A DNA stretch of 52,042 nucleotides from Acidimicrobiaceae bacterium. GTDB taxonomy: Bacteria > Actinomycetota > Acidimicrobiia > Acidimicrobiales > RAAP-2. Positions 40,860-49,287 of this stretch are shown here, piece after piece (within the stretch, counting starts at the first letter, position 1; the number at the start of each line of letters is the position of its first letter). The notes below the pieces were generated by a model. That model was not told where the DNA came from, searched no databases, and saw only the letters and a list, made by a program, of their open reading frames with translations. The translations under genes were made by a program, and so were the position numbers. The stretch is taken from assembly GCA_003133405.1 (NCBI GenBank), contig PKXH01000075.1, positions 7,386-59,427 of the forward strand, given 5' to 3'.

Positions 40860-41408
40860 GTGCTGGTGTGGATGGATCTGGAGATGACGGGATTAGAGCC
40901 CCGACGCCACGTGATCGTCGAAATCGCCACGCTGCTCACCGACGATCACCTCAACATCATCGCGGAAGGCCCCGACCTGGTGATCCACGCGACGCCCGAA
41001 CAGCTGGCCGAGATGGGTCCCTTCGTGACCGAAATGCACACCGTGTCGGGCCTCTTGCCCGAGATCGTCGCGTCCACGGTCACAGTCGCGCAAGCTGAAG
41101 CGGAAACCCTGGTGTTTCTAAAAGCCCACATCTCCGAGCCGCGCTCGGTGCCGCTTTGCGGGAACTCGATTGGCACCGACCGTCGTTTCCTTCAGGAGTA
41201 CATGCCCGAACTCGAATCGTTTTTGCACTACCGCAACGTCGACGTGTCAACCATCAAAGAGTTAGCTCGACGTTGGCAACCCGGCGTCGTCGCGACGTTA
41301 CCTGAGAAGGCGTCCACTCATCGCGCCATCGACGACGTTCGAGAGTCCATCAGCGAACTCACGCACTATCGGGCCACGCTGTTTCGACCACTCGAAGAGA
41401 CCAAGTAA
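40860..41408 (+). CDS. orn: Oligoribonuclease (DEDDh exonuclease)
   Basis: 'LVWMDLEMTGLEPRRHVIVEIATLLTDDHLNI', 'CGNSIGTDRRFLQEYMPELESFLHYRNVDVSTIKEL'. Confidence 0.97.
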   Translation: MLVWMDLEMTGLEPRRHVIVEIATLLTDDHLNIIAEGPDLVIHATPEQLAEMGPFVTEMHTVSGLLPEIVASTVTVAQAEAETLVFLKAHISEPRSVPLCGNSIGTDRRFLQEYMPELESFLHYRNVDVSTIKELARRWQPGVVATLPEKASTHRAIDDVRESISELTHYRATLFRPLEETK

Positions 41409-47473: not shown

Positions 47474-47553
47474 GCGGGCGTGGCGGAAATGGCAGACGCG
47501 CTGGTTTTAGGTACCAGTTCTTCGGAGTGTGGGTTCGAGTCCCTCCGCCCGCA
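47474..47553 (+). tRNA. tRNA-Leu (anticodon UAG)
   Basis: GCGGGCG TGGCGGAAATGGCAGACGCG CTGGT TTTAGGT ACCAG ... GGGTTCGAGTCCC TCCGCCCGC A; anticodon loop TTTAGGT. Confidence 0.95.
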
Positions 47554-47586
47554 CGATGCCTCCGCGCACGGTGGTGCCACGACGTC

Positions 47587-47595
47587 TGCTAGCAT
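47587..47595 (+). promoter_or_regulatory. Putative extended -10 element for the DEAD/CSD gene
   Basis: TGCTAGCAT (TGn + TAGCAT). Confidence 0.4.
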
Positions 47596-47607
47596 AGAAA
47601 ACGCTGT

Positions 47608-47681
47608 TTCATCGCATCTCGCGATGGAGACCGATTCGACTGATTTCTGCGAGTTGGGCTCATCTCAACTCGTAGGAGTTC
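47608..47681 (+). promoter_or_regulatory. Structured 5'UTR with one upstream hairpin and two mutually exclusive downstream hairpins around the SD
   Basis: CATCGC-ATCTC-GCGATG (47610-47626); TGCGAGTTGGG/CTCAACTCGTA-type stem (47648-47658 with 47664-47674); AACTC-GTAG-GAGTT (47667-47680) overlapping SD AGGAG. Confidence 0.55.
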
Positions 47682-47682
47682 C

Positions 47683-49287
47683 ATGTCCACGTCCTTTGCC
47701 GACCTCGGCGTCCCCCCACGTCTCGTGGAACGCCTTAACGCGCGCGGCATCACCGAAGCCTTCCCGATCCAAGAAGCCTCCATTCCCGACGCGCTCCAAG
47801 GACGCGACGTGGTGGGAAAAGCCATCACCGGCTCGGGCAAGACCTTGGCTTTCGCCCTGCCCCTGATGGCCCGTTTGGGCAAGGCCCGTCCGCGTAAGCC
47901 GCTCGCCCTCGTGCTCGTGCCGACCCGCGAGCTGGCGGCCCAAGTTCAAAAAGAGATCGCGCAATTGACCGACGACCGCGGACGTCGCGTGATCTCGATC
48001 TACGGCGGTACGTCGTACAACGTCGCGCGCAAGGCCCTCAACTTTGGCGTGGACGTCGTCGTGGCGTGCCCCGGGCGCCTGGAGGACATGCTCGAGCAAG
48101 GTGCGCTCGATTTGGGATCGGTAACGACCGTCGTCGTCGACGAAGCCGACCGCATGGCCGACATGGGCTTTTTACCCTCCGTGCGTCGCATCGTGGCCTC
48201 AACCTCTCCCGATCGCCACGTGATGCTGTTTTCGGCCACGATGGGTCCCGACGTGTCGTCGTTGGTACGAGAGTTCACCCACAACGCTGCCATCCACGAC
48301 GTCGTGGGTGACGAAGCCCCCAACGACGTCGATCACTACTTCTGGCGCGTGGCGCGTGATCGCCGGCCCGACATCACGGCCGAGATCGTCGAGCAGTACG
48401 AGCGCGCCCTCATCTTCACCCGCACCAAACACGGCGCCGACCGCTTGGCCCGCCAGCTGGGCGAGCGGGGAATCTCCGCGGTCGCACTGCACGGTGACCG
48501 TTCCCAGGCCCAGCGCGAGCGCGCCTTACGCAGCGTCAAGAACGGACAGATCAAAGTGCTCGTGGCCACCGACGTCGCCGCGCGAGGACTTCACATCGAA
48601 CTCCTGTCGGTCGTGGTGCACTACGACCCGCCAGCGCAGACCACGGACTACCTGCACCGTTCCGGCCGTACCGGACGAGCGGGCGCGTCGGGCGCCGTGA
48701 TCTCCCTCGTCGGCGAGGACGTCCTGGGACAGGTGAAGCGCTTGCAGCGCGCGCTCGGATTAGACCCTTCCATAGAGTCTCGTGAAGACGCCCCGGCAGT
48801 TCGCTTGGGCGCCGTCGACGACGCGGTGGCCGCGGAGCGGCTCGACGAGCGTTCGCCCAAGCGTCGCCCCGAGTCCTCGACGCCTCGAATGCGAGAGCGC
48901 GGTCCGCGGAACTTTGCGCCTCGCGAGCCACGCGAGCCACGCGAGCGTGTCGCGACCACTCGCCACCCCCGTCGTTCGAACGAGAGTTCGCCGCGTCCGG
49001 TGCGAGGTTTTGAACGCCGCGAGACGCCCCCGGCTCGCGGCGAGAATCCGCGCCGCGCTCGCGGCGGCGAGGCGGTGGTCAGTTTCTTCAACGACTCCAA
49101 AGGCTTCGGCTTCGCCAGCGACGACAAGGGCGACGACCTCTTCATTCACTTCTCCAACATTGTGGGCGACGGCTTTAAGTCGCTCAGTCAGGGTCAAAAG
49201 ATCACCTTTGAAGAGGCACAAGGTCCCAAGGGCCGCGAGGCGAAGAACGTTCGCGTGATCGGCTCTGGCCGCGCCCGGCGCCACTAG
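47683..49287 (+). CDS. DEAD-box RNA helicase with C-terminal cold-shock domain
   Basis: Q-motif/'ITGSGKTLAFALPL', 'VVDEADRMADMGF', 'HRSGRTGRAG', Arg-rich linker, then CSD 'VVSFFNDSKGFGFASDDKGDDLFIHFSNI...LSQGQKITFEEAQGPKGREAKNVRVI'. Confidence 0.95.
   Translation: MSTSFADLGVPPRLVERLNARGITEAFPIQEASIPDALQGRDVVGKAITGSGKTLAFALPLMARLGKARPRKPLALVLVPTRELAAQVQKEIAQLTDDRGRRVISIYGGTSYNVARKALNFGVDVVVACPGRLEDMLEQGALDLGSVTTVVVDEADRMADMGFLPSVRRIVASTSPDRHVMLFSATMGPDVSSLVREFTHNAAIHDVVGDEAPNDVDHYFWRVARDRRPDITAEIVEQYERALIFTRTKHGADRLARQLGERGISAVALHGDRSQAQRERALRSVKNGQIKVLVATDVAARGLHIELLSVVVHYDPPAQTTDYLHRSGRTGRAGASGAVISLVGEDVLGQVKRLQRALGLDPSIESREDAPAVRLGAVDDAVAAERLDERSPKRRPESSTPRMRERGPRNFAPREPREPRERVATTRHPRRSNESSPRPVRGFERRETPPARGENPRRARGGEAVVSFFNDSKGFGFASDDKGDDLFIHFSNIVGDGFKSLSQGQKITFEEAQGPKGREAKNVRVIGSGRARRH

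Follow-up and report, generated by a model that had tools for sequence, protein, structure and literature searches.

Control of cold shock by RNA refolding is best known from the leader of the Escherichia coli cspA mRNA. PMC9947658, citing Giuliodori et al. 2010, describes that leader as a cis-acting, cold-related thermosensor with two conformations. The crhR gene of Synechocystis encodes a cold-induced DEAD-box helicase whose expression is temperature-responsive and autoregulated; its control is placed at the stability of transcript and protein, no leader RNA switch is named and the term 'UTR' is absent from the text (PMC3485376). The refolding of bistable RNAs is helped by RNA chaperones (PMC8565331).

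The leader described here is about 80 nt long and precedes, in the window (the whole 52,042-nucleotide stretch of DNA that was analysed), the gene for a DEAD-box RNA helicase with a C-terminal cold-shock domain (CSD). Two mutually exclusive pairings are predicted in it, a hairpin (S) and an alternative helix (AH), which would correspond to the two alternative conformations of a cspA-type leader. It resembles the cspA leader (PMC9947658) in preceding a cold-response gene, in alternative conformations that would differ in the access of the ribosome to the Shine-Dalgarno sequence (SD), and in a tie to the RNA-chaperone action of the product. The analogy, already drawn in the preliminary description, holds as a concept. 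The present leader differs in its length, in the explicit helix between a linker and the 5' arm of the hairpin, and in its main target, a helicase with a fused CSD; homology is unsupported, which is judged from the lack of any Rfam 15 model match in the leader and not from a direct alignment. The likeness to crhR is that of a DEAD-box helicase with temperature-responsive, autoregulated expression, and we know of no leader shared by the two genes. With anti-sequestor/sequestor leaders (translational riboswitches and others) the element has in common two mutually exclusive helices on one strand, whose exchange is slow at low temperature, but here no ligand or conserved pocket is seen and the targets are of the cold type.

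When the window was searched with Rfam 15, only tRNAs reached the gathering score. At permissive E-values the best match in the leader was a 13.2-bit chance match to a microRNA family, and a search of the relatives' sequences returned only a tRNA. No description of the leader was found in the literature searched, a body from which subscription papers were mostly absent, and no cold-shock RNA-refolding leader was found described there for this phylum. Since there is no Rfam match, and the papers describe analogous principles and not this element, we regard it as a new family of RNA, one whose kind, the bistable regulatory leader, is known but whose anatomy and set of targets are new.

The helicase gene, its promoter and the predicted fold

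The helicase gene, which the leader would regulate, runs from its ATG at 47683 to 49287 on the forward strand (534 amino acids), and the Pfam domains of its product are DEAD (1.2e-45), Helicase_C (6.4e-29) and CSD (9.5e-19). The extended -10 promoter element reported earlier upstream of the leader is present on the same strand as TGCTAGCAT (47587-47595) and is conserved: of 84 leaders of the genus, 74 have TGNTANNNT at -102 to -88, where its frequency in the window would predict 0.003. Transcription of the helicase message is predicted to start at about 47602-47603. A consensus scan near the leader found no intrinsic terminator and no sigma-70 match. Upstream, on the same strand, a tRNA-Leu(TAG) (47474-47554) ends 32 nt before the extended -10, and in many relatives tRNA 3' ends lie at a similar spot ahead of the helicase leader. 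Elsewhere in the window ARAGORN calls a tRNA-Ile(GAT) at 40902-40996, which falls below the gathering score of the Rfam tRNA model.

Some relatives depart from the usual reading frame. The helicase homologues of L011 and L038 each carry one in-frame stop inside the match (TAA and TAG, respectively), which are either assembly errors or signs of pseudogenes. In L131, L132 and L241, all of genus g176, none of ATG, GTG and TTG is found where the start is expected, some 7 nt past GGAG; the region reads GTC or ATC, then ATC or ATT, before the usual N-terminus begins, so AUC or AUU may serve as a rare start codon in that genus.

The strongest predicted fold of the window's leader consists of a hairpin, P1, and S, one continuous hairpin of 17 base pairs, both on the forward strand. 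P1 (47607-47629, pairing 47607-47615 with 47621-47629) includes the upstream hairpin CATCGC-ATCTC-GCGATG (47610-47626) noted previously, which is present and conserved; its outer pairs overlap the linker. S spans 47642-47680 (47642-47658 with 47664-47680) and contains the SD, AGGAG (47674-47678), which in its lower part is paired with UUUCU. The fold of 47603-47685 has a predicted energy of -33.1 kcal/mol (z = -3.5), a stability reached by none of 200 shuffles, and a longer piece around the leader gives z = -2.9. S alone accounts for -21.7 kcal/mol at 37°C and is predicted to be fully paired even at 60°C.

The preliminary description had proposed a bistable 5' leader in which a first stem, CGAGTTG (47650-47656) with CAACTCG (47666-47672), left AGGAG free and a second, AACTC (47667-47671) with GAGTT (47676-47680), buried it. 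All four motifs lie at those positions. The first stem, however, is the top of S, the hairpin that pairs the SD. The second (stem B, 47667-47680, forward strand) is a real pairing but a weak one, at -4.5 kcal/mol alone, and it is poorly conserved, with 73% of alignment cells paired and the outer pair kept in 11 of 52 relatives. For want of conservation it was rejected as the second state, and it is at most a minor structure when S is open. The idea of a bistable leader of the DEAD-CSD gene survives, carried by conservation, covariation and the cold-type targets; both stems named as its switch were wrong.

Conservation of the element and its occurrence at other genes

A protein search found a helicase orthologue in 91 of the 99 genomes of the genus, and in some 85 species this same DEAD-box/cold-shock-domain gene is preceded by the roughly 80-nt leader, complete with an extended -10 that belongs to it. 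The order of parts is common to nearly all the orthologous leaders: extended -10, P1, linker GGAGACCGATTCGAC, CGAGTTGG, loop, 3' arm, GGAG and start codon. A covariance model (R1), built from 21 leaders (alignment A1), matches the element at the helicase gene in 86 of the 99 genomes, in a few as weak matches only. Second copies within the genus were looked for among the other R1 matches; those examined were chance, or came from duplicate or edge contigs of the same gene.

Covariation was counted in alignment A3, in which 52 leaders were aligned without reference to structure. P1 and S together have 87.6% of cells paired, with 47 double-change cells compared to 15.6 in shuffles, and their covariation score was reached by 0 of 500 shuffles. 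For P1 the paired fraction is 91.8%, and three of its pairs are changed on both sides. The upper and lower stems of S both covary across the genus, the lower one being rebuilt in single lineages as UGACUG/CAGUCA (L068), UGACGG/CCGUCA (L066) and AUAGAC/GUCUAU (L018). Leaders differ widely in P1, its loop and the junctions. The covariation expected in orthologous leaders is found in P1 and S, and the leader really is a conserved structured RNA.

With a broader, family-level model (R2, from alignment A4), and counting weak matches, the element is seen in 13 of the 21 genera sampled from the family; it is also seen in a few genomes from other families of the order. In G187, G338 and G172, which represent other genera and families, the element precedes the same helicase gene. 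At an E-value of 0.001, a phylum sample of 377 genomes gave matches in the window's genus alone; the class and phylum samples together added only a further genus of the family and a further family of the order. The named relatives are Acidimicrobiaceae and Acidimicrobiales MAGs, many of them from peat, permafrost-thaw sites and lakes, where a role in cold regulation is plausible.

The helicase is not the only target. Nine matches in nine genomes of genera g174, g179 and g183 (L239, L240, L246, L248, L249, L255, L257, L258 and L261) lie in the leaders of stand-alone CspA-type genes, and genome G441 has a second copy ahead of a fatty-acid desaturase gene (Pfam FA_desaturase, 2.9e-16). At the csp loci some 200-300 nt separate the element from the csp start downstream, and at the desaturase locus, too, the start codon of the gene lies far beyond it, so direct occlusion of the SD cannot be the whole mechanism at these loci. 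The possibility that the csp loci are remnants of a lost helicase gene was considered, and no convincing relic was found. The remaining weak R2 matches look like chance. Within the window's own genus no csp gene convincingly carries the element, and its own genome has no desaturase homologue at 1e-12. That the element is a structured cis-regulatory leader of cold-type genes we regard as very likely.

The alternative helix and the explanations it has to displace

The 5' arm of S, CGAGTTGG (47650-47657), is common to S and to AH. In AH the linker GAGACCGATTCG (47627-47638, forward strand) is the 5' strand and pairs in register with the shared strand CGAGTTGGGCTC (47650-47661, forward strand), whose other partner, over 47650-47658, is the 3' arm of S; AH and S exclude each other because both use this arm. 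The window's AH has 11 base pairs, 47627-47629 with 47659-47661 and 47631-47638 with 47650-47657, separated by an A47630.G47658 mismatch. The linker/5' arm helix is a better candidate than stem B for the competing second state.

AH was found by inspection, and all tests of it are post hoc. Duplex prediction gives it one and the same register across nearly all lineages, with an uninterrupted run of 13 base pairs in leaders of the L008 type. L081 has changes on both strands (GAGUUUAGAUUCG with CGAGUUUGAACUC) and keeps 13 pairs; the changed linker of L028 still matches its own arm, and in other genera, where the linker is GGCCTGATTCG, GGGCTATCTC or GGGCTCACTT, the match to the cognate arm persists with about one mismatch or bulge. 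Over 24 lineages cognate linker/arm pairs were more stable than swapped ones (-15.2 vs -13.5 kcal/mol, p = 0.0005, or 0.009 without L081). Complementarity exceeded that of shuffled linkers at p < 0.05 in 12 of 18 lineages and was not significant in L018, L072, L122, L124, L126 and L141. The shared-strand columns are near-invariant in A3, and within the genus the changes in AH are one-sided, with no excess of covariation over shuffles. Two conserved helices on one strand, as in a bistable leader, are therefore indicated by the covariation of S and by the register and cognate advantage of AH, though AH has no excess covariation within the genus.

A different explanation is autoregulation without a switch: P1 and S would make up a single fixed fold, the CSD-helicase or some other RNA-binding protein would bind it, and CCGAUUCG and GAGUUGG would owe their conservation to being read by that protein. 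Excess covariation within the genus is indeed found in P1 and S and not in AH, the linker and arm sequences are highly conserved, and the gene product is itself an RNA-binding protein. A protein reading, however, predicts no complementarity, whereas changed linkers still match their own arms in L081 (with both strands altered), in L028 and in several other genera. We consider such an explanation unlikely, albeit the best of the alternatives.

At equilibrium S is preferred over AH in the window by 7.9 kcal/mol at 37°C, and by more in the cold, so that a lower temperature gives AH no advantage. The preference is 2.5 kcal/mol in L008; AH is the minimum-energy fold of L075 and is preferred at 5°C in L081. 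S is nonetheless the predicted dominant equilibrium state in most lineages, as would be the case were these passive hairpins that set mRNA stability or basal translation. Stable hairpins are common in mRNA leaders, and at csp loci the element is far from the start codon. Passive hairpins, though, have no need of a strongly conserved linker and arm, or of AH complementarity kept in diverged lineages, and we find this reading improbable.

The temperature switch suggested in the preliminary description does not hold as a plain RNA thermometer, in which warming would melt S and free the SD. In its favour, the window's clade has the SD within the hairpin and other members have it in an internal loop. 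Against it, S is about 8-9 kcal/mol below the alternative at all temperatures from 5 to 37°C, and where the SD helix of a zipper-type thermometer has marginal stability near growth temperature, S has -21.7 kcal/mol at 37°C and is predicted to remain folded at 60°C. The targets are moreover cold-type and not heat-type genes, and a thermometer has no need of a conserved linker complementary to the 5' arm, all of which leaves it very improbable. Least probable is a leader that senses a metabolite, as a riboswitch does, or another ligand, with the AH/S switch retained and a small molecule giving the signal: mutually exclusive anti-sequestor and sequestor helices, which the AH/S arrangement fits, are the usual riboswitch layout, and the element does precede more than one kind of gene, but there is no Rfam match even at permissive E-values, the targets have a cold response and not a metabolite in common, and P1, loop and junctions are so variable that no conserved pocket is apparent.

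A co-transcriptional switch as the proposed mechanism

As S wins at equilibrium in the window, the AH/S switch needs kinetics. When folding was predicted for the growing transcript, AH formed with high probability once the arm had emerged, whereas S appeared only with the emergence of the 3' arm together with the SD or lower stem; this predicted order is the signature expected of a co-transcriptional switch. As proposed, RNA polymerase would leave the conserved promoter, P1 would fold, and the linker GAGACCGAUUCG would pair with CGAGUUGGGCUC to give AH. With the next 25 nt or so, the 3' arm would compete for the shared strand and S would form, burying the SD in this genome. Translation would be high in the AH state, with the SD region free or weakly paired, and low once S has formed. 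In the cold, strands would exchange slowly, AH would last and synthesis of the helicase would be favoured; a rise in temperature, or helicase/CSD protein that has built up, would hasten the conversion of AH to S and turn synthesis off. Autoregulation by the encoded protein, also suggested earlier, is possible. Which state is on, the signal and the feedback by the protein we infer.

We put the probability that a co-transcriptional two-state AH/S switch is the mechanism of this mRNA leader of cold-response genes at about 0.55. In its favour are the conservation of the leader at the gene, the covariation of P1 and S, the register and cognate advantage of AH, the AH-first folding, the related copies ahead of helicase, CspA-type and desaturase genes, and the comparable principle of the cspA leader. 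Against it stand the equilibrium preference for S, the AH covariation no higher than in shuffles within the genus, the six of 18 non-significant lineages, the distant csp element and the post hoc nature of the AH tests. SD burial is not general either: in the predicted folds it is complete in the window's clade, much of the genus has two stems with the SD in the internal loop that separates them, and SD accessibility over 35 leaders was equal to that of shuffled controls, so that general burial was rejected as a conserved function. When the 5' arm was blocked in silico, the SD was still partly paired.

The element is probably a switch for the cold response of the bacterium, with direction and signal as proposed above. 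More tentatively, RNA helicase, CspA and fatty-acid desaturase might make up a small cold regulon that this undescribed Acidimicrobiia RNA family coordinates through a kinetic anti-sequestor/sequestor switch, one reset by the helicase/CSD product under its control. If true, a compact leader unrelated to that of cspA would be common to three classic kinds of cold-response gene. The leader sits on a gene whose product unwinds RNA, which makes it testable whether the helicase adjusts its level by way of the rate at which its leader refolds; an RNA-remodelling enzyme would then sense the need for itself through its own message.

Two arrangements at other loci are recorded here. On contig C49 of G441 (L247) a short ORF follows the element, and its TGA overlaps the GTG start of the desaturase (CGGTGACGG), an overlap that would allow translational coupling. 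In G396 (genus g180; contig C20, 31698-33276; L276) the helicase gene is followed directly, on its own strand, by a stand-alone csp, in the place of the C-terminal cold-shock-domain fusion of the window's genus.
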